Translations under genes and position numbers: made by a program
Shown: piece by piece, positions 2 to 15,609 of the stretch
Layout of the letters: each line of letters begins with the position of its first letter
Numbering within the stretch: position 1 is the first letter of the stretch
Notes under the pieces: generated by a model
Told to the model about the DNA's origin: nothing
The model's input: only the letters and a program-made list of their open reading frames with translations
Database searches by the model: none
Source of the DNA: a virus
IMG/VR virus record: IMGVR_UViG_3300046001_008800
Coordinates: 1 to 20,754 of that record
Strand: one strand, 5' to 3'
DNA length: 20,754 nucleotides

Positions 2-304
2 ATTTGTTTCCTTACTCCAGACGCACCTTTATCCTCAGGAACAGGATTATTTAAACATAAAGAAACAGGTTTATATTGTCGTCCAAAAAATGCCGATGGT
101 AGTATAGATGTAAAATTATTAGACACTATATATAAGGATTCCCAAGATATGGATAAATGGGAATTAACTGATAGATTATCAAATAAATTTAATAGATTAA
201 TACTTTACAGGGGAGATTATTTCCATGTTTCATTAGATTATTTTGGAACTAATTTATATGATGGGAGATTATTTCAAACCTTTTTCTTTGATACTGAGTA
301 TTAA
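2..304 (+). CDS. 2OG-Fe(II) oxygenase-like protein, DUF6445 type (3' end only)
   Basis: This is the C-terminal 100 residues of a gene that begins left of the window; its frame is open from base 2 to a TAA at 302-304. The residues include SSGTG near the start, then LILYRGDYFH, SLDYFGT and DGRLFQTFFF at the end. That series is characteristic, from memory of the family, of DUF6445 proteins, which resemble 2-oxoglutarate/Fe(II) dioxygenases. The H of GDYFH would be the distal iron ligand and the R of DGRLFQ the 2-oxoglutarate-binding arginine; the HxD part should lie outside the window. The stop overlaps the next start (TAATG), implying translational coupling with the glycosyltransferase that follows. 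The substrate is unknown; hydroxylation of a sugar or of a protein side chain are both possible. Confidence 0.7.
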   Translation: MCFLTPDAPLSSGTGLFKHKETGLYCRPKNADGSIDVKLLDTIYKDSQDMDKWELTDRLSNKFNRLILYRGDYFHVSLDYFGTNLYDGRLFQTFFFDTEY

Positions 305-1554
305 TGTTGGTTGTAAAAAAAATAAAAGCATTAATTTATAACTGGCATTCATTAGGTGATATTGAGTTAAATTCTAATGTTTATTATCAAGAAAATCTAG
401 AAAACTCAATTATATTACATTCTCTTAAATTTACAGGAGAATTAGAAAAAGATATTACCCAATATAATCCTGATATTATAGTTTATGAGGGAGAATTAAT
501 TAAAATAAATAATTCTGTTTTAACAGAAAAATGTTTACAATATACTAAATTCCCTACAGATGAAATATTAGCTAATGATATTATAACCCATGTAATATCT
601 AAAAATTGCCAACAGATTGCTCCTATTTTTTCTATTTTTACTCCTGCTTATAAGACAGAATATAAAATATTTAGAGCATATGAAAGTTTAAAAAACCAAA
701 CATTTACAGATTGGGAGTGGGTGATATTAGATGATTCCCCAGATAATATAACTTGGGACATAATACAATTTATATCTAAAAATGATTTTAGAGTTAAAGC
801 TTATAAAATATATCCTATCACCGAAGGAAATGTTGGATTAGTAAAAAATAGAGTAGCATCTTTATGTGAAGGAAAATGGTTAGTTGAATTAGACCATGAT
901 GATGTTTTAACTAAAAATTGTCTACAAAAATGTTATGATGCCTCATTAGAATTTCCAGATGCTGGATTTATGTATAGTGATGTTTGTGAGGTTTATGAAA
1001 ATGGAGAAATGAAATTTTATGACCATAATTGGTCAGGTAATTGGTATGCACGTGACGATAATACTTTTGATTTTGGATATGCCGGACATACTTGGGTAAA
1101 AAATGATAATAAAAACTATTTAACTCATCACTATCCCGATATAAATCCTTTAACAATTAGATTTAATATTAGTATGCCAAACCACGTTAGGGTTTGGAAA
1201 CGTGATGTTTATAATAAAATAGGAGGTCATAATAAATTCCTTCCAGTTGCTGATGATTTTGAACTTATTATTCGCACATTTTTAAATACACGTATTATAC
1301 ACATAAAAAAAATGCTTTACATACAGCATAACAACCATAATAGCACTGTGGATAATAACAGTATAGACATAAATAAACGCGCTAGATTAATACGAGACCA
1401 CTATGATTTAGCAATCCATAATCGTATACAAGAATTAGGTTTTAAAGATTGGAACTGGAATGAAGAATTAGGTCATTCTCAAAAATTTCAAAATGATGTA
1501 TTAATTAAAAAATATTTTAACGAAGAACAAGTAATGAATTACATTTATAAATAA
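304..1554 (+). CDS. GT2-family glycosyltransferase
   Basis: The 416-residue protein has a GT-A catalytic domain from about residue 106. It opens with the strand FSIFTPAY (109-116), followed by the SLKNQTFTDWEW segment typical of GT2 enzymes, the nucleotide-binding ILDDSPD (141-147) and a DxD-type metal site in ELDHDD (195-200). Such enzymes transfer a sugar from a nucleotide-sugar donor in the cytoplasm. The first ~105 residues match nothing I recognise and are not part of the usual GT2 fold. The C-terminal part (to ~390) has the WKRDVYNKIGGHN region expected for acceptor binding. The start is fixed by the TAATG overlap with the upstream gene; no Shine-Dalgarno sequence is present. Donor and acceptor cannot be told from sequence. 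Confidence 0.85.
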   Translation: MLVVKKIKALIYNWHSLGDIELNSNVYYQENLENSIILHSLKFTGELEKDITQYNPDIIVYEGELIKINNSVLTEKCLQYTKFPTDEILANDIITHVISKNCQQIAPIFSIFTPAYKTEYKIFRAYESLKNQTFTDWEWVILDDSPDNITWDIIQFISKNDFRVKAYKIYPITEGNVGLVKNRVASLCEGKWLVELDHDDVLTKNCLQKCYDASLEFPDAGFMYSDVCEVYENGEMKFYDHNWSGNWYARDDNTFDFGYAGHTWVKNDNKNYLTHHYPDINPLTIRFNISMPNHVRVWKRDVYNKIGGHNKFLPVADDFELIIRTFLNTRIIHIKKMLYIQHNNHNSTVDNNSIDINKRARLIRDHYDLAIHNRIQELGFKDWNWNEELGHSQKFQNDVLIKKYFNEEQVMNYIYK

Positions 1555-1559
1555 AACTT

Positions 1560-3413
1560 ATGATAAATTTTACAGTAACCGAAAAAGAAATTAACGAATA
1601 CAGACAAGCACAACCATTTCCACACATAGTTATTGATGATTTTTTACCACCATCACTATTAAATGGTGTTATTGATGATTTTAGAAACTATAATAATTGG
1701 GGTTGGGATAATAGTAATTATTCAAAGGACCATCAAGTTAAAAAATTCTTTTCACCTTGGAACAATGATGGAGATACAACATTACCAATTAATACCAAGT
1801 TAATATTAAATTATTTTAATTCACCTGATGTTATTAATATGTTAGAAGAATTAACAGGTATTAAAGGTCTAATTGCTGACCCTACATTACTAGGTGGTGG
1901 AATGCATAAGATCGATTCAGGTGGTAAATTATCAATTCATGCGGATTCAAGAAAACATGCCATTAGTGGTAATTACAGAAGGTTAAACTTATTAGTTTAT
2001 CTTAATAAAGATTGGAATAAAGAGTGGGGTGGTTCTTTACAATTGTGGGATAAAGACATGACAACAATGGTTCAAGATATTCAACCTTTATTTAACCGTG
2101 TGGTTATCTTTAATACTGGTGCTGACACATATCACGGCCATCCACATCCATTAAATACACCTAACGGTATGTCAAGAATTTCATTAGCATTATATTATTA
2201 TACAAAAGAAAATCCTGATACAGAAGAAAATAGTGTTACATCTGCAGTTTGGAAAGACACACCTGTTGAAGTTAAAAAAGATGGCCCAACCATATGTTTT
2301 GCAACAATGTGTAAAAATGAAGAACATTGCATTCAGAATACATTAGAATCTGTTTATAAGCACATTGACTATTGGATTGTATGTGATACAGGATCAACAG
2401 ATAAAACTTGTGAAATTATTAGGAAATTTTTTGAGGAAAAGGGCATACCCGGTGAGTTACATATTGATGAATGGGTAGGTTTTGATCATAATAAAACTTT
2501 AATGATGAAAAGAGCTAAAGATAAAGCCGATTATGTTTTACACTTAGATGCTGATGATTTATTAATTAATGATTTAGAATTTACTAAAGAAGATATAGGG
2601 GGAGATGCTTATTTTATGAATGTAACTCGTGGGGATCTTAAATGGAAAGCTTTTATTATTTTTAATAACAGATTAACTTGGAAGTTTTGTGGTGTTGCCC
2701 ATACAATTATAAAATGTATAGAAAAAGAGCATTATACTATTAAAGATATAACTCATAAAGAAGCATATATCTCAGGTGAAGGAATTGGTTCTAGAGCATT
2801 TGATCCTAATAAATTTTTATATGATGCTAAAAAACTAAAAAAACAATTTTTTGATACATTATCTTACGACCCAGATGGATTAAATACTCGATCCGTTTTT
2901 TATACAGCTCAAAGTTATCAAGATTCAGGAATGCATGAAGAAGCAATTAAATGGTATCGATTGTATACAAAACTAAATGATAGTTGGATTGAAGAAAAAT
3001 TTGAAGCCCATATGAGAATTTCACTTTGTATGATGGAATTAAATTATAACTTAAAAGACATTGAAATGGAAATGTTTAAAGCTATTAATTTAGAAGAAGA
3101 TAGAGCAGAACCACATTATCATTTAGGATTATATTGTAATCAAATTGGAGAATACGAAAAAGGATATTCATATTTTAAATCATCAAAATCAAAAGATTTA
3201 GACAAAATAAAACAAAAATATGTTCTTTTTATTAGAGAAAATATGTATGGAGATTATAATAACGATGAACTATCTGTCTCTTGTTTTTGGACAAAAAGAT
3301 TTGAAGAAGGTTATAATTATTTATTAGAAATAATAGATGATAATAGATTCACAAGCCAAAAAGATAGATTATTGACTAATAAAAAACATTTTCAAGACAA
3401 TTTTACTTTTTAA
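1560..3413 (+). CDS. Three-domain fusion: 2OG-Fe(II) oxygenase, GT2 glycosyltransferase, TPR-like repeats
   Basis: This 617-residue protein joins two enzymes. Residues ~1-215 form a prolyl-4-hydroxylase-like double-stranded beta-helix: the iron ligands H127 and D129 (HAD), then H192 or H194 in YHGHPHP, and R206, placed to bind 2-oxoglutarate. Residues ~243-410 are a GT2 domain: ICFATMCKNEE (245-255), CDTGSTD (275-281) and the metal-binding LDADD (329-333). Residues ~425-560 hold paired amphipathic helices such as YTAQSYQDSGMHEEAIKWY and HLGLYCNQIGEYEKGYSYF, which look like TPR units. Oxygenases of this kind hydroxylate proteins or small molecules, so one chain could hydroxylate a side chain and then glycosylate it, as happens on collagen hydroxylysine; that coupling is inference. 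The gene lies 5 bases after its neighbour. All expected catalytic residues are present. Confidence 0.85.
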   Translation: MINFTVTEKEINEYRQAQPFPHIVIDDFLPPSLLNGVIDDFRNYNNWGWDNSNYSKDHQVKKFFSPWNNDGDTTLPINTKLILNYFNSPDVINMLEELTGIKGLIADPTLLGGGMHKIDSGGKLSIHADSRKHAISGNYRRLNLLVYLNKDWNKEWGGSLQLWDKDMTTMVQDIQPLFNRVVIFNTGADTYHGHPHPLNTPNGMSRISLALYYYTKENPDTEENSVTSAVWKDTPVEVKKDGPTICFATMCKNEEHCIQNTLESVYKHIDYWIVCDTGSTDKTCEIIRKFFEEKGIPGELHIDEWVGFDHNKTLMMKRAKDKADYVLHLDADDLLINDLEFTKEDIGGDAYFMNVTRGDLKWKAFIIFNNRLTWKFCGVAHTIIKCIEKEHYTIKDITHKEAYISGEGIGSRAFDPNKFLYDAKKLKKQFFDTLSYDPDGLNTRSVFYTAQSYQDSGMHEEAIKWYRLYTKLNDSWIEEKFEAHMRISLCMMELNYNLKDIEMEMFKAINLEEDRAEPHYHLGLYCNQIGEYEKGYSYFKSSKSKDLDKIKQKYVLFIRENMYGDYNNDELSVSCFWTKRFEEGYNYLLEIIDDNRFTSQKDRLLTNKKHFQDNFTF

Positions 3414-3422
3414 TTTATACAT

Positions 3423-4583
3423 ATGTCTATCTATATTATTACTCCTTGTAGTAGAGTTCAATATCTTGAAGCCATTTCTAAAACAATACCAAAAGAATGC
3501 GTTTGGGTTATTGTTTATGATTCAAATTATAATAATCAAATATTACCATATGGTGATATAATTTTAAGACCAAAAAACATAAGTGGAAATTATGGTAAAC
3601 CTCATATAAATTATGCTTTAGATACCTTACCACTAAAAGAATCTGATTGGATATATGTGTTAGATGATGATAATATTATTCATCCTGATTGGTATGAAAA
3701 TGTTCAATCCTTGTGTAATAATAACTATAATATTTTAAGTTGGGGACAACTATGGAATGATAATACAATGAGATTAAGACCAACAGAACACATGATACTC
3801 AGATTAATAGATCAAGCAAGTTATATGTGGAGATATGGATTTGATTCAACCACTAGATTTGAGGAATCATATTTTGGTGATGGTATATTTGCTGATAAGT
3901 TTAACCAAAAATCCCATTGTATTGATAAATATATTAGTTATTATAATTATCTCTCGCCAGAATCATTTACAGAGGAAGAAAAATTAGAGTTTGATGAGGG
4001 GGTTTTAGCAGTTTATCTAAAAAATAATATTATGAATTTCGATAAAAATAATTTACCTACAACTCAGGATGTAATAAATCTATCAAAGATAGAACAACTT
4101 GACTATTCAACTGTTAACACAACTGATGTCTCCCACATTAAAGAAATTTATTTAAAATCTATAAAATACAGAGGAGGAACTGCTTGTGAGGTTGGTAGCT
4201 TAGGTGGTCACAGCACCCTCTCGTTATGCTTAGCTGGACTTAATGTAACCTCATATGATAATGATGGACATAAAGGATTTAAGGATAAACGAGAAGCCGT
4301 ATGTAAAGATTTTAATGTCAATTGGGTTGTTCAAGAAGGACTTTATGCCTTAACTGATGATGTAAAATATGATGTTGTATTCCATGACTCATATCACTTT
4401 GAAGAGGTAATTCCTGAATTGGTAGCATTTTGGTTTTATAAAATTAAAGATGAAGGAATGTTAATTGTTCATGATGTTGAAACTTTTAGTCATGAAAGAT
4501 TTATGTTTTTAATTGGTAATCCAAGATTTGAAAGAACAAAAGATATTCATGGTAGAGAACTTGGAACATATTATAAAAATTAA
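3423..4583 (+). CDS. Glycosyltransferase-like domain fused to class I methyltransferase
   Basis: The 386-residue protein is bipartite. Residues 1-~165 look like a small GT-A domain: IYIITPCSR at the N-terminus and a metal-site candidate in VLDDDN (79-84) followed by HPDW. Residues ~235-386 are a Rossmann methyltransferase related to the Methyltransf_24 group: the SAM-binding loop ACEVGSLGGHST (254-265), an acidic residue at D279 in the position that binds the SAM ribose, and YDVVFHDSYHFEEV (316-329), with a second strand ending MLIVHDVE. Methyltransferases of this type commonly O-methylate sugars. A single chain could add a sugar and methylate it, or methylate the product of a neighbour. The stop codon overlaps the start of the next gene (TAATG). 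The glycosyltransferase assignment is weaker than the methyltransferase one. Confidence 0.75.
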   Translation: MSIYIITPCSRVQYLEAISKTIPKECVWVIVYDSNYNNQILPYGDIILRPKNISGNYGKPHINYALDTLPLKESDWIYVLDDDNIIHPDWYENVQSLCNNNYNILSWGQLWNDNTMRLRPTEHMILRLIDQASYMWRYGFDSTTRFEESYFGDGIFADKFNQKSHCIDKYISYYNYLSPESFTEEEKLEFDEGVLAVYLKNNIMNFDKNNLPTTQDVINLSKIEQLDYSTVNTTDVSHIKEIYLKSIKYRGGTACEVGSLGGHSTLSLCLAGLNVTSYDNDGHKGFKDKREAVCKDFNVNWVVQEGLYALTDDVKYDVVFHDSYHFEEVIPELVAFWFYKIKDEGMLIVHDVETFSHERFMFLIGNPRFERTKDIHGRELGTYYKN

Positions 4584-5818
4584 TGAACCTAACAAATTGT
4601 GATACTTTAATTATTGGTGCTGGAATAACAGGACTTTCATTAGCTTCTTTTTTAGATACTGATAATTATCTAATTGTTGAAAAGGATTCTGAAGTTGGGG
4701 GGTATTGTAAAACTACAATTAGAAACGGATTTGTTTGGGACTACTCAGGACACTTCTTTCACTTTAACAATCAAGAAATTAAAGATTATGTATTAGAGAA
4801 TATTGAGTGTGACGTGGTTACAGTTAATAAAAAAAGTCACATATATTATAAAAACCAATACATAGATTTTCCATTCCAAAACAACATAGACCAATTACCA
4901 ACAGATGAGTTTGTTGAGTGTTTATATGACCTGAAAAATACTGGAAGTGGTGAGGTTAATACATTCACAGATTTTGTTAAAAACACATTAGGAGAGTCAA
5001 TTTGTAATAAATTTATAATACCATATAATCAAAAGTTATATGCTTGTGATTTAAATAATTTAGATTATGATGCGATGGGAAGGTTCTTTCCAAAACCAAC
5101 AAATTTTGATGATTTACTAACGCAACTCAAAAACAAAAACAAGACCGAATCTTACAATGATACATTCATATACCCAACAGGTGGTAGTGTTGAATTTGTT
5201 AAGTCATTACTTAAACGAGTAAATAAAGATAACATTTTATTAGATACAGAAATCATTAGTATTGACCTTGAAAATAAAATAGCTCAAACAAATAACGGAT
5301 ACATCAAGTTTAATAAATTAGTTAATACTATGCCATTTGATACCTTTACGAAATTAACAGGTGAAAAAATTAATAATCTTTCATCAAATAAAGTAGTTGT
5401 ATTTAATTTAGGATTTGACAAGTCAACTGACATCAGTTCAAATTGGGTATATTATCCTAATGATGAAATATTCTACAGAGTTGGATTTTATAATAATATA
5501 TTTAAAACCGATAAGATGAGTTTGTATGTTGAAATTGGTATGGATAAAAATCAGGAAGTCAATGAACAAATTTTATTAAAAAAGATACTAGAAGACCTAA
5601 AAAAATCAGATGTAATTACTAATCAAAAATTAATAGACCACCAAATGATTATTATGAATCCAGCATATGTTCACATCACTAAAGAATCAAAAGAAATTTA
5701 TAATGAATGGTGTGAAAAAAATAACCCAAACGGTTTATTTTCTATTGGTAGATATGGTTCGTGGACGTATTGTTCTATTGAGGATAATATTATACAAGCA
5801 AAAAATTTATTAGTTTAA
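4583..5818 (+). CDS. FAD-dependent oxidoreductase/mutase (UDP-galactopyranose mutase or amine-oxidase superfamily)
   Basis: The 411-residue protein opens with a dinucleotide-binding strand and GAGITG loop (12-17), the ribose-binding acid in IVEKD (31-35), then EVGGYCKT and DYSGHFFHF (53-61). The C-terminal FAD motif is present as GLFSIGRYGSW followed by SIEDN (384-401). The SGHFFHF segment recalls the GPHIFHT segment of UDP-galactopyranose mutase, and IPYNQKLYACDLNNL also fits sugar-mutase-like members found in polysaccharide clusters. R299 and R390 could be the diphosphate-binding arginines, but I cannot align them with certainty. The likely job is supplying or altering a nucleotide sugar for the surrounding transferases, for example pyranose/furanose interconversion. 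Length is close to that of bacterial mutases (~370-400). A related oxidase or desaturase is the alternative. Confidence 0.7.
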   Translation: MNLTNCDTLIIGAGITGLSLASFLDTDNYLIVEKDSEVGGYCKTTIRNGFVWDYSGHFFHFNNQEIKDYVLENIECDVVTVNKKSHIYYKNQYIDFPFQNNIDQLPTDEFVECLYDLKNTGSGEVNTFTDFVKNTLGESICNKFIIPYNQKLYACDLNNLDYDAMGRFFPKPTNFDDLLTQLKNKNKTESYNDTFIYPTGGSVEFVKSLLKRVNKDNILLDTEIISIDLENKIAQTNNGYIKFNKLVNTMPFDTFTKLTGEKINNLSSNKVVVFNLGFDKSTDISSNWVYYPNDEIFYRVGFYNNIFKTDKMSLYVEIGMDKNQEVNEQILLKKILEDLKKSDVITNQKLIDHQMIIMNPAYVHITKESKEIYNEWCEKNNPNGLFSIGRYGSWTYCSIEDNIIQAKNLLV

Positions 5819-5856
5819 ACTTGGTTATTTAAAATAAGGTTATTATATTATATATT

Positions 5857-6768
5857 ATGAATATTACAAAACTGCTAGATATAGATAAAGTGTTTTGTAT
5901 TACTAAATTTAGTAATCAACGTTTAAACAATATTTTAGAACAACAACATAGATTAAATTTAGACATTGAATTTGTTTATCCTGAATTTGATGATGTTCCT
6001 GTTAAAAGTTTAAAAGATACATTTGTAAAAATTGTTAAAGAAAATAAAAATAAATATAAAAAAATATTAATATTAGAAGATGATTTTTGGACAGATTTAA
6101 CTGAAAAACAAATTATATCTTATATTGAAAATAGTGACTATAAAAATATAAGTTTTGACGTTTTTACTTTAGGAAGTTCTATATTTGAAATAGAAAATAA
6201 ATATAAAAACATATTTAAAATAAATTCTTTCGGATATGCCCATTCATTAATAATAAATCTTGAACACATATCTAACGAATTAATTAACAAGCTGAATGAT
6301 AGTGATGAAGCTTTAGATACTATTTTAAGTAAAATGTCTGAAAGTTATAATTTTTATAGTTTTGAAGACAGTATTTTTCAACAAAAAAATTATTTAGAAA
6401 GTAGTATCACCCCAGATAAATCATTAGAAAACTTTAATCATTCTTTTAGGTATTTAAGAGATAAAAATGTTAATAATGATAAACTTATAAAAATAAATGA
6501 AGAAACTTTTATTTTTGAAAATACAATAAATGCATGGGGTTATTATACTGATGGGATTGTAAGAAAAAAAATAGATTTTGCTTCTAATAGTGATATTCCT
6601 CTTGTAGTAAAAATATATGATTACTATTCTGGGGCTTATTCTAATGAATTTAATATTGATTTTAAAAATTTTTTTATTGAATTTAACATATTTACTCCTA
6701 AAGTAGTATTAGAAATAAAAGATGCAAAAAATACTCTACTATACATAGAAATTATAAATAGAAACTAA
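5857..6768 (+). CDS. GT25-like glycosyltransferase with C-terminal beta-rich module
   Basis: The N-terminal ~200 of 303 residues resemble the GT25 (LPS-type) glycosyltransferase fold: an initial strand DKVFCITKFSNQR, a conserved middle KKILILEDDF (68-77) whose EDD is the usual metal site of this family, and a later FGYAHSLIIN strand. The match is by motif and order, and the protein is divergent. Residues ~205-303 form a separate beta-rich tail (LVVKIYDYYSGAYS at about 249-262, then VVLEIKDAKNTLLYIEI) that resembles segments in three or four neighbouring proteins. The 38-base gap upstream is the largest in the island. It is pure A/T with few exceptions, so an internal promoter is possible though none is certain. 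The stop overlaps the next start. Confidence 0.6.
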   Translation: MNITKLLDIDKVFCITKFSNQRLNNILEQQHRLNLDIEFVYPEFDDVPVKSLKDTFVKIVKENKNKYKKILILEDDFWTDLTEKQIISYIENSDYKNISFDVFTLGSSIFEIENKYKNIFKINSFGYAHSLIINLEHISNELINKLNDSDEALDTILSKMSESYNFYSFEDSIFQQKNYLESSITPDKSLENFNHSFRYLRDKNVNNDKLIKINEETFIFENTINAWGYYTDGIVRKKIDFASNSDIPLVVKIYDYYSGAYSNEFNIDFKNFFIEFNIFTPKVVLEIKDAKNTLLYIEIINRN

Positions 6769-7604
6769 TGATAAATATAACTTATAACCGAAATGAAAAT
6801 AAAACTAAAGTTGAAGTAAGTAAACTTGATGTTATTAAAGAACATTTACCTTTAAAAATACAATTCAAAAATATTATTACAGATGAAATCCACTATGAAA
6901 CTGAACTAAAAGATTATTATTGGGCTGAATGGTGTGGTTCTGAATTAATTACTGATGTTTTAATTTATTCATCTAATGGAACTTTATTACATGAATATAA
7001 ATGGGATGTAATAACTCATGGTGATGAAATTGAAAAAATGTTATGGTTTTATTTAAAAGCAAGACAATTGAATGGATTAAAATCTAATGGATTAGTAATT
7101 GGTTCACACGATGGGAGAAATGGACATTGGATTTACCCAGTAAAATACAAATTAACAGATGCTACTTTGGTAGATGGTAGTGATAAACAATATGTTGAAT
7201 TAACACAAAATTATAAAAATAATTCTAACATAGAAACACTAAATACTATTGTAACTACAGATGGTTCGGATGTTGAATGGTATCAAGGAGGAGAAGGTTA
7301 CACAGATACTATTGTTCCTTCATTTATTAATAGCTGGTTAGAATCTTCAGAGATTATAAAAAGTTATAGAAAAAGTGTATCAATTAATGATTTAATGAAA
7401 GATAAAAATTATGATTGGTTACATTTAGATGTTGAAGGTATTGATGGTGATTTAATTTTAACATTAGAAAATAAACCTAATGTTATTATTTATGAAAGCA
7501 TGAATTTAGATAAAATTATGGAAGCTAAACTTAATTTATGGTTTGTAGAAAATTCATACGAAACAATAGAATGTAATGGAAATACTATTGCTATAAAAAA
7601 ATAA
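6768..7604 (+). CDS. FkbM-type methyltransferase with N-terminal beta-rich module
   Basis: The C-terminal ~190 of 278 residues look like an FkbM-type SAM-dependent methyltransferase: a divergent SAM-loop strand LVIGSHDGRNGHW (109-121), the ribose-binding region ATLVDGSD (132-139), and the very typical YDWLHLDVEGIDGDLI (215-230) followed by VIIYES. The hallmark D-x-E-G signature is intact, but the glycine loop (GSHDGRNG) is not canonical, so activity is probable rather than assured. Residues ~28-80 are a small all-beta module (LKIQFKNIITDEIHYE ... YYWAEW ... DVLIYSSNGTLLHEY), which resembles the domain in front of the heptosyltransferase core of the gene at 10225. The FkbM family mostly O-methylates sugars and other hydroxyls. 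The next gene, one base away, is a second FkbM enzyme. Confidence 0.75.
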   Translation: MINITYNRNENKTKVEVSKLDVIKEHLPLKIQFKNIITDEIHYETELKDYYWAEWCGSELITDVLIYSSNGTLLHEYKWDVITHGDEIEKMLWFYLKARQLNGLKSNGLVIGSHDGRNGHWIYPVKYKLTDATLVDGSDKQYVELTQNYKNNSNIETLNTIVTTDGSDVEWYQGGEGYTDTIVPSFINSWLESSEIIKSYRKSVSINDLMKDKNYDWLHLDVEGIDGDLILTLENKPNVIIYESMNLDKIMEAKLNLWFVENSYETIECNGNTIAIKK

Positions 7605-7605
7605 T

Positions 7606-8541
7606 ATGATAGTTTTTAAAGAATTTATAGAAAACCAAAAAGGAATTCAATTTAGTTCTTTAGAATCTCAAGAAATTATTATTAAAATAATAGATGGATA
7701 TACAGGACTTTGTTCTTATCAAGAAAAAATGAATGTTATACCTAATATTATATATTATTGTTTTCACCCTGTAGAAGTATATCATAGAAGATTTGAAATA
7801 TGGGATAATGAGTTAAAAACAATGTATTTAAAAATAGATGCTACATCAAACGAATCAATTAATTTAAAAGATTTAGACACATACAATGTATTAAAGGATT
7901 ATAAATATAATAATCCTCAAGATAAAAACTCTGGTCTTTCATTATATGAAATATTTGTTACAAAAATATATGATAAATTTTTTAAAGTAAATGAAGGGGA
8001 TATTGTAGTAGATATTGGAGGAAATTTAGGACTATTTTCATATTATGCCCTATGTAAAGGAGCTAAACAAGTTTATTGTTTTGAACCTTCTCCTCAATGT
8101 TGTAATTGTATGAATGAAAATTTTAATTTCCCTAATTTAATAATTGAAGAAGCGGCTGTAGGAACTAATAATGGAGAAATTATATTTAATATTGATACTG
8201 AAAGTTCTATTAATTCATCAGTATTTTATACTAGTGAAAATAGTCAAACAATTACTTGTAAATCTATTAATCTTAATGATTATATAAAAACGAACAATAT
8301 AGAAAAAATTGATTATCTTAAAATAGATTGTGAAGGTGCTGAATATGAAATCATTGAAAGTTTAAATGAACAGTATTTAACTAATAATATTAATAAAATA
8401 TGTTTAGAATATCATTTAAATAACAACGGTGAAATAAATACTATTTTAGATAAATTAAAAAAATGTGGTTTTAATATTAATTTTGAATATGGAGATCAAC
8501 AAATTAATGATGAATTGGGAATATTTTATGCTTATAAATAA
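7606..8541 (+). CDS. FkbM family methyltransferase with N-terminal beta-rich module
   Basis: This 311-residue protein carries a canonical FkbM domain from about residue 112. The SAM loop is VVDIGGNLGLFS (134-145), the ribose acid lies in VYCFEPSP (156-163), AAVGTNNGE follows at 183-191, and the signature is DYLKIDCEGAEYEII (236-250) followed by KICLEY. All parts expected for an active O-methyltransferase are there. Residues ~22-78 are a beta-rich segment (IIIKIIDGYTGLCSY, then YHRRFEIWDNELKTMYL) similar in layout to the modules in the proteins before it. The gene begins one base after its neighbour's stop and ends abutting the next ATG, so coupled translation is likely. Two consecutive FkbM genes suggest methylation at two positions or on two different sugars. 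Confidence 0.88.
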   Translation: MIVFKEFIENQKGIQFSSLESQEIIIKIIDGYTGLCSYQEKMNVIPNIIYYCFHPVEVYHRRFEIWDNELKTMYLKIDATSNESINLKDLDTYNVLKDYKYNNPQDKNSGLSLYEIFVTKIYDKFFKVNEGDIVVDIGGNLGLFSYYALCKGAKQVYCFEPSPQCCNCMNENFNFPNLIIEEAAVGTNNGEIIFNIDTESSINSSVFYTSENSQTITCKSINLNDYIKTNNIEKIDYLKIDCEGAEYEIIESLNEQYLTNNINKICLEYHLNNNGEINTILDKLKKCGFNINFEYGDQQINDELGIFYAYK

Positions 8542-9498
8542 ATGAAAAATAAAGATTTAATTTTAATTACATCATATACCCCTGATTCTATAAGAAAAAA
8601 TTTTCTATTAGATTCCTTAAAGTCTATAGATAAAAATAAATTTGATATTATGGTTTCTTCTCATAGTTCTATATCTGAAGAGGCTTTAGAATATTGTAAT
8701 TATTTTATTTATGATAAAAAAAATACTTTATTATTTGATTTGGAGTATAAATTATCTTATTGGTTTTTATGTAGTGCTTTTAAATTATATACTACCGAAT
8801 ATCAAGATTATAACCATATAATAGCTGCTGGTTCTCTTATTATTAATGGATTATCATCAGCTAGAAACTTTGGTTACAATAAAGTTCATTGGTATGATTA
8901 TGATACTATATTCTTAGATGATAGTGAACTTATTGAAAATTCAATACTATTAGATTCACATTCAATTATTTGGTATAGGCACCCAGATGTAGTAGCATTT
9001 TCAGGAATGTCTTTTAATTTAAACAAAATAGATCAAGATTGGTTTAACACATCTGATAGTATTTTTTATTCTTTTTTAAATATATCTACAGTAAATACTT
9101 TAGAAGAATTTAATCATTCATTAATAATAAAAAAAGATGATCATTACGAAAAAACCGTTTCTGATTTAAAGAAAAAAGCTAATATCGCTCTTCATGCCAA
9201 TAACGATACAGAGTGGGTTATAGTAGTTTGGGATGAATTAAATAATGAATTTATGTTGTTTAATTATAATAAAACAGGAAATAATAATAATATTTATGTT
9301 ATTATAAATAATTCTCGTATTGAAAATATGTTTAATAATCAAAAAGAAACATATATGATTAAATCTTTAGGAAAAATAGAAGATATCCAAACTATAAAAC
9401 TTATATTAAATGATAAAGTTATAAAAAATTATGATTTTAATATTATTAATAAAGAAGAATATATTTTAAAAAATAAAATAGAATATATAGTTAATTAA
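8542..9498 (+). CDS. Putative GT-A-like glycosyltransferase
   Basis: The 318-residue protein begins with a strand DLILITSYTPDSIRK, then FLLDSLKSIDKNKFDIMVSSHS, the pattern of a nucleotide-sugar-binding Rossmann-like half. A DxD candidate sits in HWYDYDTIFLDDSE (116-129), where a GT-A metal site belongs. I do not recognise the exact family, so the call is putative. After residue ~205 the chain becomes a low-complexity, Asn-rich beta region (WVIVVWDELNNEF, then TIKLILNDKVIKNYDF) that may be another copy of the beta-rich accessory module seen in neighbours, though this is the weakest of the set. The start directly abuts the preceding stop. Its location among glycosyltransferases and methyltransferases supports a sugar-transfer role. 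Confidence 0.55.
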   Translation: MKNKDLILITSYTPDSIRKNFLLDSLKSIDKNKFDIMVSSHSSISEEALEYCNYFIYDKKNTLLFDLEYKLSYWFLCSAFKLYTTEYQDYNHIIAAGSLIINGLSSARNFGYNKVHWYDYDTIFLDDSELIENSILLDSHSIIWYRHPDVVAFSGMSFNLNKIDQDWFNTSDSIFYSFLNISTVNTLEEFNHSLIIKKDDHYEKTVSDLKKKANIALHANNDTEWVIVVWDELNNEFMLFNYNKTGNNNNIYVIINNSRIENMFNNQKETYMIKSLGKIEDIQTIKLILNDKVIKNYDFNIINKEEYILKNKIEYIVN

Positions 9499-9507
9499 AA
9501 AATAATA

Positions 9508-10221
9508 ATGAATATAAAATTAAAAGAAATATTACTAAATTCAATTCAAGAATATAATAAATATCTTGAAAATAAGATAGAAAATTACGATTCCCATTCA
9601 GGATACTCTTTAAGGGTTAGACAAATGCATACTTTAGTAGAATGTTTATCTGAACATTTTAATTTTGATGAAATAAATTTAATTGAAACTGGAGTAAGTG
9701 GGCATTTAGATTATGGTTTATTTGGATTATTTTTTGCTCATGTTGTAGATCAGTATGGTGGTCAAATGCATTCTGTAGATTTAAATTGTGAATCTTGTTT
9801 AAGTAGTGAAACCATTTTCAGCTCAGAACTACCTAACTTAACATACAAAACATACTGTCAAGACTCAGTTGAGTTCTTAAAAAATCCACCTATTATCCCT
9901 AACATAATCCATTTAGATAGTTATGATTTTCAATTGTTTAATCCATTCCCCAGTGCTCTTCATGCTTGGAAAGAATTTAAAGCTATTGAACATTTGATGC
10001 CTAAAGGAAGTATTATAATAATAGATGATAATTGGAAACAAGACACAATCCTTCAGTGGATTCAAAATGGGGAAGAAACTTGGAATAAAATTATTTATCC
10101 TATGATTGGAAAAGGATCTCATTTATATCAAGAAGCATTAGAGGGAAATATCGAATGGGAATTAATAGGAAACCATTATGATTCTTGTGATAATATAAAA
10201 ATAGTTTTAAAGAAAAAATAA
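9508..10221 (+). CDS. Class I SAM-dependent methyltransferase
   Basis: The 237-residue single-domain protein has the elements of a Rossmann methyltransferase of the Methyltransf_24/cephalosporin-hydroxylase-like group: a SAM-loop strand INLIETGVSGHLDYG (56-70), an acidic end of strand 2 in HSVDLN (88-93), CQDSVEFL (117-124) where the adenine site is shaped, IIHLDSYDF (133-141) at strand 4 and IIIIDDN (169-175) at strand 5. The paired acids D137/D140 and D173/D174 resemble the metal-binding set of small-molecule and sugar O-methyltransferases in this group; this is inference. Four cysteines in the first half have no obvious pairing. The gene is 9 bases after its neighbour and 3 bases before the large glycosyltransferase fusion. 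Confidence 0.7.
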   Translation: MNIKLKEILLNSIQEYNKYLENKIENYDSHSGYSLRVRQMHTLVECLSEHFNFDEINLIETGVSGHLDYGLFGLFFAHVVDQYGGQMHSVDLNCESCLSSETIFSSELPNLTYKTYCQDSVEFLKNPPIIPNIIHLDSYDFQLFNPFPSALHAWKEFKAIEHLMPKGSIIIIDDNWKQDTILQWIQNGEETWNKIIYPMIGKGSHLYQEALEGNIEWELIGNHYDSCDNIKIVLKKK

Positions 10222-10224
10222 ACA

Positions 10225-12513
10225 ATGAATAAACCAAAGTTATACATTCATGGTTCTTATATAGGAAATACTGGTTACAACCAACATACTAGAGATTTCT
10301 TTAGAGAATTATCAAAGCATCTACAATTAAAAGTAAAAAATTTTACTGTAGGAAAAACATGGGATGGATATAATGAAACTCCTCACGATAAAGAACCTTA
10401 TATTAATGAGATTGACAAAAATATCTTATATGAACAAATACTTTGGAATGATAAGGGTGGAAGAGATAATTACAAAATTTATCCTAATTTATCTAAAGAA
10501 TTTATTCATGATTTAAATATAGTTTTATGTGAAACTAACCACCATTTATTTTATGATTCTTATAAGGGCCCAAAAATAGCATATAATGTTTGGGAGACAA
10601 CAAAACAACCAGAAAACTTTTTTAATAAGTTAAAAGAATTTGATGAGTTATGGGTTCCATCGAAATGGCAACGTGATGTAACTATTGCTCAAGGTTATGA
10701 TCCTGATAAAATTAAAGTAGTTCCTGAAGGTGTAGATATTAATACATTTTATCCTAAAGAAGAAACCCATGAATTAACATCTGATGGACGTTTTAAATTC
10801 TTTTTAGCAGGTAGATGGGATTATAGGAAATCAACTAAAGAAATTATTGAAACATTCCTTAAAACATTTAATAAATACGAACCTGTTGATTTAATAATTT
10901 CTATTGATAATCCATTTTCAGGAGATAATTTAGAAACAACAGAAAATAGATTAAAACATTATGGGTTAGAAGATGAACGAATTAAAATAGTTCACTTTCC
11001 TAATAGAGAGGATTATATTAAATTATTAAGATCTAGTAATGTATTTTTATCTTGTGCTAGATCAGAAGGGTGGAATTTACCTTTAATCGAAGCAATGGCT
11101 TGTGGAACACCCTCAATTTATTCAAACTGTTCAGGCCAATTAGAATTTGCTGAAGGTAAAGGTATTCCTGTAAATATTATTGGTGAAAAATCAGCAAATG
11201 ATTCGTCATATAATCATTTTAATGGATATGATGGAAACTATTATGAACCTGATTTTAAAGATTTAGGTAAAAAAATGCGGGAAGTTGTTAATCATTATTC
11301 AAAATATAAACAACTTGCTTTAAAAGAATCTGAAGAAATTTGTAATGATTTTAATTGGGAAAAAATAGGTGAAATTGGATATAAAACTATAATGGAATTT
11401 TATGATAAAATGAATTCTGAAGAATATAAAAATCAAATCCCCCAAAATGAAATTAAAGTAAGTTATTTAGAAGGACCTAAAGTTGAAATTATTGGCGATA
11501 AAGATGAAGAATATTTTGTTGAATTTTTAGATGAAAATGGAAAATTAATTCATAGTGATAATATTAGTAATAATATGTGGACTTCGTGTTCTAGAAAGTA
11601 TTATACTAAATGGAAAATTAAAGTTAATGGAGTTATTATTGATGAATTTGACCTTACTAATAGACGTGTATTAATTGGTTTAGAATCAAAATCTATTGGT
11701 GATACTATTGCTTGGACTCCTTATGCTGTAGAATTTGCTAAAAAACACAATTGTAAAGTAATTTTAAGCACGTTCCATAATGAATGGTTTAAAGGATTAG
11801 ATGCCTATAAAGACATTGAATTTATTGAACCTGGACAATTAACAGAATGTTATGCTATATATAAAATAGGATGGTTTAGGGGAGAATCAGGAAAATGGGA
11901 TAAACTTGATATGTATCCTAATTATCCTCAAACACAACCTTTACAAAAAACAGCATCTGATATTTTAGGTTTAGAATTTAAAGAATTAAACCATGGGATA
12001 AATTTTAAACCAAAACCTAAATCAACAAAAACAGATTATATAGTTATAGCTCCCGAATCAACAACAGGTTGTAAAGAATGGCCTTATGATAGTTGGGTAG
12101 CATTATCTAAAATGTTACGTGAATTAGGTTATACTGTAGTTACTCTTACAATTAAACCATATAATATAAAAGGCAATTTAAATATTCATGGAAAAACGTT
12201 GAATGAGTCTATGGACATTTTATATAACGCAAAATTTTTAATAGGATTAAGTTCAGGCTTATCTTGGATAAATTGGGCTTTAGGAAAACAAACAGTAATG
12301 ATAAGTGGTTTTTCTTCAAAAGATCATGAATTTCAATCTAATAATATAAGAATTCAAAATGAACATGCTTGTAATTCATGTTGGGGAAATACTAATTTTA
12401 CTTTTGATCCTGGAGATTGGGATTGGTGTCCTATTTGGAAAGGAACAGATAAACAACACATTTGTGAAAAATCCATTTCATCATTAAACGTATTTAATTT
12501 ATTACCTTTTTAA
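10225..12513 (+). CDS. Fusion of GT4 glycosyltransferase and TibC/Aah-like autotransporter O-heptosyltransferase
   Basis: The 762-residue protein has two complete glycosyltransferase halves. Residues 1-~405 are a GT4 (GT-B) enzyme: ELWVPSKWQRD (141-151), VVPEGVD (165-171), FLAGRWDYRKS (203-213) and the donor-site SEGWNLPLIEAMACGTP (280-296), with the catalytic-type E281 and E289. Residues ~418-480 are a small beta domain. Residues ~481-762 match the bacterial autotransporter heptosyltransferase family as I recall it: GDTIAWTPY (492-500), PLQKTASDILGL (572-583), STTGCKEW (612-619), SSGLSWINWA (676-685), ISGFSS (693-698), and four cysteines C716, C719, C735 and C747 in the arrangement of the family's iron-binding finger. 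Characterised members O-heptosylate serines of autotransporter passenger domains from ADP-heptose. The acceptor here is unknown. It ends the island, 24 bases before a virion gene. Confidence 0.88.
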   Translation: MNKPKLYIHGSYIGNTGYNQHTRDFFRELSKHLQLKVKNFTVGKTWDGYNETPHDKEPYINEIDKNILYEQILWNDKGGRDNYKIYPNLSKEFIHDLNIVLCETNHHLFYDSYKGPKIAYNVWETTKQPENFFNKLKEFDELWVPSKWQRDVTIAQGYDPDKIKVVPEGVDINTFYPKEETHELTSDGRFKFFLAGRWDYRKSTKEIIETFLKTFNKYEPVDLIISIDNPFSGDNLETTENRLKHYGLEDERIKIVHFPNREDYIKLLRSSNVFLSCARSEGWNLPLIEAMACGTPSIYSNCSGQLEFAEGKGIPVNIIGEKSANDSSYNHFNGYDGNYYEPDFKDLGKKMREVVNHYSKYKQLALKESEEICNDFNWEKIGEIGYKTIMEFYDKMNSEEYKNQIPQNEIKVSYLEGPKVEIIGDKDEEYFVEFLDENGKLIHSDNISNNMWTSCSRKYYTKWKIKVNGVIIDEFDLTNRRVLIGLESKSIGDTIAWTPYAVEFAKKHNCKVILSTFHNEWFKGLDAYKDIEFIEPGQLTECYAIYKIGWFRGESGKWDKLDMYPNYPQTQPLQKTASDILGLEFKELNHGINFKPKPKSTKTDYIVIAPESTTGCKEWPYDSWVALSKMLRELGYTVVTLTIKPYNIKGNLNIHGKTLNESMDILYNAKFLIGLSSGLSWINWALGKQTVMISGFSSKDHEFQSNNIRIQNEHACNSCWGNTNFTFDPGDWDWCPIWKGTDKQHICEKSISSLNVFNLLPF

Positions 12514-12537: not shown

Positions 12538-13179
12538 ATGGCAACTTTAAATCCATCAAACGTAATAAACGGCAATACTATAGAAGCATCCGATATAGCA
12601 CAATTATATAAAGCTTTTGGCACAGGTTCAGGTGCTGATATTACTGGACTAAGTATGACAGGTAGTATAACTAATGCTAATGTGGCTACATCAGCAACAT
12701 CAGCTTCTAATATTACTACAGCAGTTACTGGTGGTGGCACTCATTATTTAACATTTGTTGATCAAGCTGGAACTCGTCCTCCAAAAGTTGCTTCGCTTTT
12801 AGAATATAATGCTGCTACTAATAATTTAACAGTTACGGCTTCTTTTGCTACTACGGCTTCATTTGCTTTAAATTCCAGTGTTACGCAAGTTAATACTCAA
12901 TATTATGATAATGGAGTAAACACTGTTCCCGCTGATTTTAAATTTGTAGCTGGTAAAATAGCTATGACTAGTGGAGCTGCTACAAGTAGTATATTTACTA
13001 ATTTAATTGGTAAAGTAATAGGTAATACAGTATGGATTAATGCTTCTTATCCCGAAGCATTCACAACAACCCCCGGTCAATCTCTTCTTAAAGTTAACGT
13101 ATCTGCCAGTGGACAAGTATTAATTAGTGGTGCCCCTTCAGATACAGGAACAGTTATATTTACAGGAATATATATTTAA
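12538..13179 (+). CDS. Ser/Thr/Ala-rich virion structural protein, possibly a fibre or head/tail decoration
   Basis: The 213-residue protein is rich in Ser, Thr, Ala, Asn and Gly. It starts MATLNPSNVINGNTIEASDI, a style common at the N-terminus of phage fibre-like proteins. It has short alternating strings, TSATSASN (51-58) and TASFATTASFA (100-110), which are common linkers in virion proteins of this phage type. The C-terminal ~90 residues are predicted all-beta (IGNTVWINASYPEAF, then SGQVLISGAP and GTVIFTGIYI) and may form a trimeric knob. No enzymatic motif is visible. Its own late-promoter-like motif lies just upstream. It follows the heptosyltransferase fusion gene directly and is the best local candidate for an O-glycosylated acceptor, since it has many exposed-looking Ser/Thr; this is inference. 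Confidence 0.6.
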   Translation: MATLNPSNVINGNTIEASDIAQLYKAFGTGSGADITGLSMTGSITNANVATSATSASNITTAVTGGGTHYLTFVDQAGTRPPKVASLLEYNAATNNLTVTASFATTASFALNSSVTQVNTQYYDNGVNTVPADFKFVAGKIAMTSGAATSSIFTNLIGKVIGNTVWINASYPEAFTTTPGQSLLKVNVSASGQVLISGAPSDTGTVIFTGIYI

Positions 13180-13189
13180 TAAATAATAA

Positions 13190-13441
13190 ATGACAACACA
13201 AGTTTTAACCCCCGAAGAACTACAAAAAGTTCAAAGTTTACAGTCTAAAAGAGATCAATTAACTATTGATTTTGGTTATATTGAATATCAAATTCAAGAA
13301 TTAGAACTAAAAAAAGAATCTCTTATTGAGTCCTTACTTCAATTAAAAAACGAAGAAATCCAAATTGGTAAAGAAATTTCCGAAAAATATGGAGAAGGAA
13401 AAATCAATATCACAAAAGGAGAATTCACCAGTTTTAATTAA
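13190..13441 (+). CDS. Small coiled-coil protein of unknown function
   Basis: The 83-residue protein is mostly one long amphipathic helix: residues ~8-65 carry regular hydrophobic spacing (LQKVQSLQSKRDQL, YQIQELELKKESLIESLLQL), with a kink around FGYIEY at 29-34 that suggests a helical hairpin. The last ~15 residues (KINITKGEFTSFN) are non-helical. It starts 10 bases after the preceding stop with no promoter-like motif of its own, so it is probably co-transcribed with the fibre-like gene. No signal peptide or membrane segment is present. It could be a small virion component or an assembly factor; nothing in the sequence decides between these. Confidence 0.65.
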   Translation: MTTQVLTPEELQKVQSLQSKRDQLTIDFGYIEYQIQELELKKESLIESLLQLKNEEIQIGKEISEKYGEGKINITKGEFTSFN

Positions 13442-13497: not shown

Positions 13498-15609
13498 ATG
13501 GCAAACACATTAATATCACCTGGCGTACTCTCAATTGAAAACGATCAGTCCTTTATTACGCAACAACCCGTAACAGTAGGTGCTGCGATTATTGGTCCAA
13601 CAGTTAAAGGTCCTGTAGAAGTTCCAACAATTTGTACCTCGTACACTGATTACCAAAATAAATTTGGTACTACTTTTGTAAGTGGTAGTCAACAGTATTC
13701 ATATTTTACTTCTATTGCTGCCTATAATTATTTCTTAAATGGTGGAGAAACTTTATTAGTAGCTAGAGTAGTAAGTGGAACTTTTTCTGAAGCAAACTCA
13801 ACTCCTATTACTAATGGAGAATTAGCAACAACTGCTTCGGCTACTCTTGGTATAACTCCATTCTCAGCAAGTTTTGCTGCTGTTGGTTCTAGTTCATTTA
13901 GCGTGAATGGTATTGCTTTTAACTTTACAGGAGGAGCATTTGCTAACACCGCAGCACAGATTAATATTAATGCTTCTGGATTTACAACTCCAACAACATT
14001 TGCGGCTGGAGTAGTAACTGCTTTAAATTTTAGTTCTTCAGTATCTCCTTATAATACAAGTGCTTCATTACTTCACCTTACAGCATCTAGTACAGTTGCT
14101 ACTTTAAATTTATTTACTACAGCATCACAAATAGGAACTGTATTTTCAGCTGATACATTAAATGCCTATACAGTTGTGTCGGCAAGTGTTACTACTAACT
14201 TTAGTGGTGCTACAAACGAAGAAGCTTTAGTATTAAAAACTATTTCTGAAGGAACTATTATGAATAGTTCTAGCTCATTAGATGTTAGTGGTTCATTAGC
14301 ATCTGGTTCAGAAGATAATATTAGATTCCAAATCGCAAACAGTGATACTGCTGCTGGAACATTTAGTTTAATTATTCGTCAAGGTAATGATAATACAAAT
14401 GAACAAATTGTATTAGAAACTTGGACTAACTTATCAATGGATCCTACAGCTCCAAACTATGTAGCTAGAGTAATTGGTGATCAAGTTAAAGTATATAGTT
14501 CTGTAGATGGTCCACAAATTAACGTTACTGGTGATTATCCTAATGCCTCTAGATATGTTTATGTGTCTAGCGTAGCAACACCAACACCTCTTTATTTTGA
14601 TAATAATGGTATAGCTAAATCTCAATTTACCGGTTCTATTCCTACAAATAAAAACGGTTCATTTACCGGAGCTAATGGTAATTTATTTGGAGCAGGAGCT
14701 AAATTTAATAATGCTATTATTAATAGTGTTACTAACACTCAAGGTTTAACAGGTAGTGATTATAATACTATGATCGATTTATTAGCTAACCAAGATGATT
14801 ATAGATTTAATGTATTAATTACTCCTGGATTATTTGCTAACCAAGCAAACATAGGTACTTCTCAAGTAACTACTATTATTAACAACACAATGAATCGTGG
14901 TGATAATATTTATATTACTGATTTAGTGCCTTTTGGTTCAACTGTTAGTGATGCCACATCAGCCGCAAATTCGAAAAACACTTCATATGCTGCCTCGTAT
15001 TGGCCTTGGGTTCAAGTAGTTGATCCTAACACAGCCCAATTAGTATGGGTGCCTGCCTCAACGTTAGTAGCCGGTGTATACGCGTATAATGACAACGTAA
15101 GTGAACCTTGGTTCGCTCCGGCCGGTATTAACAGAGGTGGTTTATCTACGGTAGTAAGAGCTGAAAAGAAATTAACTCAAGCACAACGTGATACTTTATA
15201 TATAAACAAAGTTAACCCAATTGCTACTTTTCCTGGAACAGGAGTTGTAGTTTACGGACAGAAAACATTACAAACTAAAGCAAGTGCTTTGGATCGTGTA
15301 AACGTTCGTCGTTTATTGATTTCTCTTAAATCATACATCGGTCAAGTTGCTAATAACTTAGTATTCGAACAAAATACTATAGCTACACGAAATGCTTTCT
15401 TAGCTCAAGTTAACCCATTCATGGAATCAGTTCAACAACGTCAAGGTTTGTATGCTTTTAAAGTAGTAATGGACTCAAGCAACAATACTCCAGATGTAAT
15501 CGATAGAAACCAATTAGTAGGACAAATTTACTTACAACCGACTAAGACTGCTGAATTCATTTACTTGAACTTCAACATCTTACCAACAGGAGTATCTTTC
15601 CCAGCATAA
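13498..15609 (+). CDS. Contractile tail sheath protein (T4 gp18-like)
   Basis: The 703-residue protein has the standard sheath N-terminus, ISPGVLSIENDQSF, then VGAAIIGPTVKGPVEVP and YTDYQNKFG, used to link neighbouring subunits. The conserved C-terminal domain is equally clear: ARNAFLAQVNPFMESVQQRQGLYAFKVV and the last strand with NFNILPTGVSF. The sheath polymerises around the tube and contracts to drive it through the cell envelope. Length is slightly above that of T4 gp18 (659). The extra seems to be a Ser/Thr/Ala-rich insertion at ~108-236, between LLVARVVSGTF and ALVLKTISEGT, segments that normally lie closer together. The gene has its own late-promoter-like motif and is followed by the tube gene, the usual order in myophages. 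Confidence 0.95.
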   Translation: MANTLISPGVLSIENDQSFITQQPVTVGAAIIGPTVKGPVEVPTICTSYTDYQNKFGTTFVSGSQQYSYFTSIAAYNYFLNGGETLLVARVVSGTFSEANSTPITNGELATTASATLGITPFSASFAAVGSSSFSVNGIAFNFTGGAFANTAAQININASGFTTPTTFAAGVVTALNFSSSVSPYNTSASLLHLTASSTVATLNLFTTASQIGTVFSADTLNAYTVVSASVTTNFSGATNEEALVLKTISEGTIMNSSSSLDVSGSLASGSEDNIRFQIANSDTAAGTFSLIIRQGNDNTNEQIVLETWTNLSMDPTAPNYVARVIGDQVKVYSSVDGPQINVTGDYPNASRYVYVSSVATPTPLYFDNNGIAKSQFTGSIPTNKNGSFTGANGNLFGAGAKFNNAIINSVTNTQGLTGSDYNTMIDLLANQDDYRFNVLITPGLFANQANIGTSQVTTIINNTMNRGDNIYITDLVPFGSTVSDATSAANSKNTSYAASYWPWVQVVDPNTAQLVWVPASTLVAGVYAYNDNVSEPWFAPAGINRGGLSTVVRAEKKLTQAQRDTLYINKVNPIATFPGTGVVVYGQKTLQTKASALDRVNVRRLLISLKSYIGQVANNLVFEQNTIATRNAFLAQVNPFMESVQQRQGLYAFKVVMDSSNNTPDVIDRNQLVGQIYLQPTKTAEFIYLNFNILPTGVSFPA

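Follow-up and report, generated by a model that had tools for sequence, protein, structure and literature searches.

The window analysed here is the whole of a 20,754-base IMG/VR virus record, and it encodes a glycosyltransferase in which a divergent BAHT domain (the TibC/Aah family, TIGR04414) stands behind an N-terminal GT4 domain (Table 1). We call this domain divergent because both the adenine-reading Arg and the beta-hairpin thumb of TibC are missing. In our judgement it is moderately probable that the protein is a phage-encoded, two-module protein O-glycosyltransferase for the phage's own Ser/Thr-Gly collagen-like fibre, with the BAHT-like module priming, the GT4 module extending and a cassette of neighbouring genes finishing the glycan. 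That automatic annotation names some phage proteins Aah/TibC was already known; what is new is a variant that is fused and has neither thumb nor Arg, together with its link to giant Ser/Thr-Gly fibres.

Table 1. Features of the window that bear on the fused enzyme, with positions counted from the first base.
Feature	Position	Strand	Basis
Glycan cassette: GT2, 2OG-oxygenase+GT2 fusion, methyltransferases including FkbM, FAD enzyme, unknowns	304..10221	+	Pfam/NCBIfam
Fused GT4-BAHT-like glycosyltransferase, 762 aa	10225..12513	+	ORF; single chain in most of ~100 related phage contigs; dN/dS 0.12-0.32
GT4 domain (GT-B, presumably retaining), residues 1-400	10225..11424	+	Pfam PF00534; phrog_2170; EX7E
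EX7E motif, E281-GWNLPLI-E289	11065..11091	+	Sequence; nearly invariant in 52 relatives
TibC-type N-terminal beta-barrel, residues ~408-480	11446..11664	+	TIGR04414 match from 408; beta strands in model
BAHT-like GT-B catalytic domain, residues 481-758	11665..12498	+	TIGR04414; PDB sequence match; Foldseek
Predicted catalytic base D493 (TibC Asp110)	11701..11703	+	Asp in 80/80
T613 and K617, predicted diphosphate binding (TibC Thr226, Lys230)	12061..12075	+	80/80
Site of TibC beta-hairpin thumb, ~9 residues shorter	12154..12204	+	Alignments; model without hairpin
S662, place of TibC adenine-contacting Arg286	12208..12210	+	Arg 0/80; V, I, S, T or L
W681, predicted sugar contact (TibC Trp305)	12265..12267	+	80/80
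Putative four-Cys iron-finger motif, C716, C719, C735, C747	12370..12465	+	80/80; TibC spacing
213-aa Ser/Thr-rich protein, substrate proposed earlier	12538..13179	+	Again only in near-identical contig L007
83-aa protein, between enzyme gene and sheath in most relatives	13190..13441	+	
Tail sheath	13498..15609	+	phrog_23 2e-74; best isolate match Flavobacterium phage immuto 52%

A TibC-type domain fused to a GT4 domain

The autotransporter heptosyltransferase profile TIGR04414 (hepto_Aah_TibC) aligns with residues 408-758 at 4.5e-65 and 220 bits, above its curated cut-off of 200, and all 14 of the related phage records that were scored also exceed that cut-off. By sequence the best PDB match is TibC itself (2e-37), and Foldseek superposes our AlphaFold model on TibC (4rap) with an E value of 1.5e-25, a TM-score of 0.79-0.81 normalised on TibC and an rmsd of about 3 A; with profile, PDB sequence and fold in agreement, the match is not a matter of chance. 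The model, built on 52 phage relatives, has a mean pLDDT of 88.3 and a pTM of 0.58, a value that leaves the relative placement of the two halves uncertain; in its C-terminal half it has both the N-terminal beta-barrel and the GT-B core of a BAHT. The N-terminal half matches Pfam Glycos_transf_1 (PF00534, 8e-15) and phrog_2170 (8e-31), and profiles, model and Foldseek concur on a GT4 enzyme with a GT-B fold and the E281/E289 EX7E motif. A preliminary description of this DNA had proposed, from its letters, a TibC/Aah-family domain with metal-finger cysteines joined to a complete GT4 enzyme in a phage, and TIGR04414, the TibC structure and the Pfam and PHROG matches bear this out. The motifs on which it relied (GDTIAW at 492, ASDILGL at 577, SSGLSW at 676 and ISGFSS at 693) are all in the translation, and its four cysteines and 24-base gap to the next gene are likewise present. 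It placed the TibC-like part at residues 481-762, correctly as to family; since the N-terminal beta-barrel belongs to that part, the real start is at about residue 408.

The functional residues of TibC were named in an eLife study (PMC4358343). Asp110, Thr226, Lys230, Trp305 and Cys339/342/358/370 are invariant across 80 phage sequences, and the cysteine spacing (3, 16, 12) is the same as in TibC, although conservation around C735 (the DWDWC stretch) is partly selected, since DWDWCPIW was among the scan patterns used to collect the relatives. Model confidence in the four-Cys loop is 55-71. Of the four residues with which TibC holds its donor, the Trp, Thr and Lys are kept in all 80 sequences and Arg286, which reads adenine N1 (PMC4358343), in none. 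The position of Pro300, which governs heptose stereoselectivity in TibC (PMC4358343), is Ser or Gly in the phage set.

The thumb has fared no better than the Arg. In TibC this beta-hairpin joins dimers into a ring, and thumb mutants fall to dimers that are inactive on TibA (PMC4358343). The phage enzyme has a thumb about nine residues shorter, without the hydrophobic tip (Phe265-Val266 in TibC), and its model has no hairpin there. The structural comparison confirmed the TibC fold anticipated earlier, while the thumb that builds the TibC dodecamer is absent: a TibC-like ring is not expected for the phage enzyme, which must assemble and work differently. With the thumb missing, a finger-mediated dimer is the probable alternative to the ring. 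Stand-alone phage proteins of about 400 aa retain both the Arg and a long hairpin; three other loci (L093, L221 and L259) keep the hairpin and have lost the Cys finger.

A scan of viral contigs yielded 101 relatives, of which 78 loci were retained. Relatives thus occur on about 100 phage contigs, nearly all with the same fusion and normally a short way before the tail sheath gene. The GT4 and TibC-type domains lie in one frame in every locus that spans the N-terminal half, with the sole exception of L076, so the fusion described earlier is real; L070 and L080 (the latter being Microcystis phage Mel-JY01, found by tblastn) carry an insert between the domains. Against four relatives, the GT4 half has a dN/dS of 0.12-0.32 and the TibC-type half one of 0.18-0.20, implying that both are under purifying selection. 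Immediately behind the gene of the fused enzyme, two loci (L060, 10265-11146; L065, 10265-11149) have another TibC-type gene, which is truncated.

A bacterial origin was considered and rejected: the genome scan gave two matches, both in phage-like sequence within MAGs. The MAGs are labelled Bacteroidetes and Pacearchaeota (L092 and L093); in each, the TIGR04414 gene adjoins genes of phage tail or fibre type, and the contig is probably mis-binned phage DNA. Of 297 genomes from the phylum to which the Bacteroidetes MAG belongs, 296 lack TIGR04414, and the lone match is a phage-like contig.

Gene neighbourhood and host

No partner autotransporter lies beside the enzyme gene, whose neighbours in the phage tail operon are a fibre, the 83-aa protein or the sheath. 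For the 83-aa protein we found no convincing family match. The 213-aa protein just downstream is 25% Ser/Thr and matches no Pfam or PHROG family, so that its earlier designation as a virion gene was a guess.

The cassette has features of its own. At 1560-3413 of the window a prolyl-hydroxylase-like 2OG-Fe(II) oxygenase is fused to a GT2 with resemblance to two other enzymes, the glycosyltransferase GmaR and the peptide glycosyltransferase SunS, and the proximity of this 2OG-oxygenase-GT2 to a collagen-like fibre in relatives makes a hydroxylate-and-glycosylate enzyme conceivable. The nearest relative (G008) has 93-99% DNA identity to the window over the cassette. Between the two a module has been swapped: the PRK07208-like FAD enzyme of the window (4583-5818) is replaced in G008 by a true UDP-galactopyranose mutase (L370:7768-8853; PF03275, 262 bits), with DNA identity of 93-94% on both sides.

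The host is probably a bacterium of the Bacteroidota. Core genes of a 176-kb relative (G001) are 25-66% identical to those of Flavobacterium phage immuto, and there is little Shine-Dalgarno signal upstream of genes (15% versus 9% in shuffles); both would fit such a host.

A giant Ser/Thr-Gly fibre as candidate acceptor

In the loci L017, L026, L047 and L051-L057 an ORF of SSGTSG-type repeats stops 4-65 nt short of the enzyme gene. These ORFs run from hundreds to about 1,500 residues, several being cut by the contig end, and are 29-50% Ser+Thr; in the fibre of L017 Pfam identifies collagen repeats and an S74 chaperone domain. In the three long relatives G001, G002 and G003 the repeat proteins reach about 3,465 residues. 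The fibre of G008 is 3,246 aa (Ser 36%, Thr 10%, Gly 32%) with a 2,145-residue GXX run and a collagen-like C-terminal part, and the gene order there is fibre, laminin-G-like gene, 2OG-oxygenase and DUF6445 genes, cassette, fused enzyme, sheath. The first base of the window corresponds to a point about 2.1 kb past the end of the G008 fibre; to judge from its relatives, the virus of the window would thus have its fibre just outside the 20,754 bases.

Low-complexity masking in tblastn gave zero matches to the repeat, which was therefore sought with a 23-base DNA pattern. Among viral contigs of at least 20 kb, TIGR04414 was present in 15 of the 48 selected by the repeat only (13 above cut-off), as against 1 of the 45 selected by two arbitrary patterns (Fisher p 2e-4, a value that overstates independence, since many contigs are related and the counts are not independent). 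That sole positive control contig itself has 46 repeat matches; the other 44 controls have none. In the reverse direction, of 22 contigs of 20-52 kb that bear the enzyme and had been picked regardless of fibre, 13 have the repeat. It is also present in a 735-kb megaphage (LR756501, 1,277 pattern matches) and in the phage contig of the Bacteroidetes MAG, and weakly in Mel-JY01. In the last of these (L080, 2-3049) an open plus-strand Ser/Thr-Gly frame lies opposite two annotated minus-strand genes and is possibly a misannotated fibre. The association has its exceptions. The 636-kb megaphage LR756504 is a counterexample, with a stand-alone BAHT-like gene and zero repeat, and 33 of the 48 repeat contigs have no TIGR04414 gene, being perhaps fragments or relying on a different enzyme. 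In line with the association, phage immuto is not among the phage records that match the enzyme, and the pattern search did not find the repeat in it.

The preliminary description took the 213-aa protein as acceptor. Outside the window the gene for it was seen only in L007, a near-identical contig, whereas the enzyme is found time and again with giant Ser/Thr-Gly fibres, which makes the collagen-like fibre the better candidate.

Proposed mechanism and rival explanations

The two-domain chain is best read as priming on Ser and then extending. The C-terminal BAHT-like module would place the first sugar onto Ser/Thr of the phage's own giant fibre and the N-terminal GT4 module of the same chain the next one; the transferases, methyltransferases and FAD/UDP-galactopyranose-mutase-like enzyme of the cassette may then extend and cap the glycan. 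Heptose, the sugar named previously, lacks support as stated, given that Ser662 occupies the place of the TibC Arg286. The loss of that adenine-contacting residue calls for caution about ADP-heptose, which is a possible donor. A host could supply it: in a sample of 198 Bacteroidota species, roughly half score above cut-off for an HldE-type kinase. A search of the long relatives for a phage heptose supply (gmhA, rfaE domain II and a GmhB-type model) gave a clear GmhA only in the distant megaphage LR756504, and short, below-cut-off nucleotidyltransferases in three contigs. In LR756504 (L111, LR756504.1 420000-462000) the GmhA (251 bits) is about 27 kb from the stand-alone BAHT-like gene, with a class 1 fructose-bisphosphatase nearby, hinting at a heptose supply of its own. 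The UDP-galactopyranose mutase in the cassette of the nearest relative makes galactofuranose a candidate for one of the sugars.

It could be argued that the enzyme and cassette instead remodel the surface polysaccharide of the host (lipopolysaccharide or capsule) and so block superinfection. This is the usual view of glycosyltransferases in T4-like hypervariable regions and has been given for pelagimyophages (PMC7029224), and the TibC-type domain is indeed a relative of GT9, which includes the lipopolysaccharide heptosyltransferases. We nevertheless think it unlikely, as the domain scores 220 bits with the protein-modifying family and 30.8 bits with lipopolysaccharide heptosyltransferase I (WaaC, TIGR02193, cut-off 185.3), has retained the iron finger and beta-barrel that characterise TibC, is located in a tail operon and co-occurs with Ser/Thr-rich fibres.

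The enzyme might, on the other hand, be a true TibC-like O-heptosyltransferase for the Ser/Thr-rich protein encoded 24 bases downstream. The family match, the adjacency of the two genes, the HldE-type kinases of the Bacteroidota and the GmhA of a megaphage with a relative would all suit this idea. It becomes quite improbable once one considers that the adenine-contacting Arg is absent from all 80 sequences, that the thumb is gone too, and that most relatives of the window have the 83-aa gene and the sheath where the window has the proposed substrate gene. The loss of both thumb and donor-contacting Arg would be explained if the BAHT-like half were non-catalytic and simply a protein-binding scaffold for the GT4 half. 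Against this, none of the 80 sequences departs at the Asp, Thr, Lys, Trp or any of the four Cys, even though most are only 55-65% identical, and this half has a dN/dS of about 0.18-0.20; we give the scaffold very little credence.

Comparison with known systems

With TibC/Aah (TIGR04414; PDB 4rap, 4rb4) the phage enzyme shares the fold, the N-terminal beta-barrel, the catalytic Asp, the Thr/Lys/Trp set, the four-Cys spacing and, as the likely type of acceptor, Ser/Thr-rich repeats. It differs in its fusion to a GT4, in the loss of thumb and adenine-binding Arg, and in its setting in a phage tail operon without an autotransporter. TibC-type and GT4 modules are also combined in two UniProt entries from uncultured Caudovirales (A0A6J5SVC1 and A0A6J5SUQ0, named 'Glycosyltransferase Aah/TibC' or 'Methyltransferase FkbM') and in WWT39291.1 of Mel-JY01, a methyltransferase by its GenBank name, all three differing from the window enzyme in module order or inserts. 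The literature searched proposes no substrate or role for these proteins, and we found in it no study of phage TIGR04414 enzymes.

GtfA/B and SdgA/B glycosylate serine-rich repeat adhesins and SD repeats in Gram-positive bacteria. Here too GT4-type enzymes are found beside long Ser-rich repeat proteins and priming is followed by extension, but the priming enzyme is unrelated, and the phage case involves fibres and one fused chain; SdgB stands low in the Foldseek list for our model. Mycobacteriophages such as Maravista have been proposed to glycosylate their capsids with their own glycosyltransferases (PMC11256854). These enzymes, like ours, are proposed to act on the virion, the differences being that the target is the capsid and not a fibre and that a TIGR04414 enzyme is not mentioned (PMC11256854).

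Large phages often carry sugar-transferase cassettes, for which changes to the host surface are the usual explanation, phage transferases of this kind being interpreted as modifying the O-chain (PMC7029224). Here, a protein-glycosylation family is repeatedly tied to a specific candidate substrate of the same phage, which poses a directly testable question, namely whether the fibre is a glycoprotein and owes its sugars to this enzyme. We suggest, tentatively, that aquatic phages may possess a mucin-like system, in which a fused priming-extending enzyme, of new donor specificity and not built as a ring, densely glycosylates giant Ser/Thr-Gly collagen-like tail fibres as long as about 3,500 residues, perhaps to shield the fibre or to tune adsorption. 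If this is true, phage fibres would be a further kind of Ser-rich repeat glycoprotein, and a compact enzyme for O-glycosylation in two steps would be gained.
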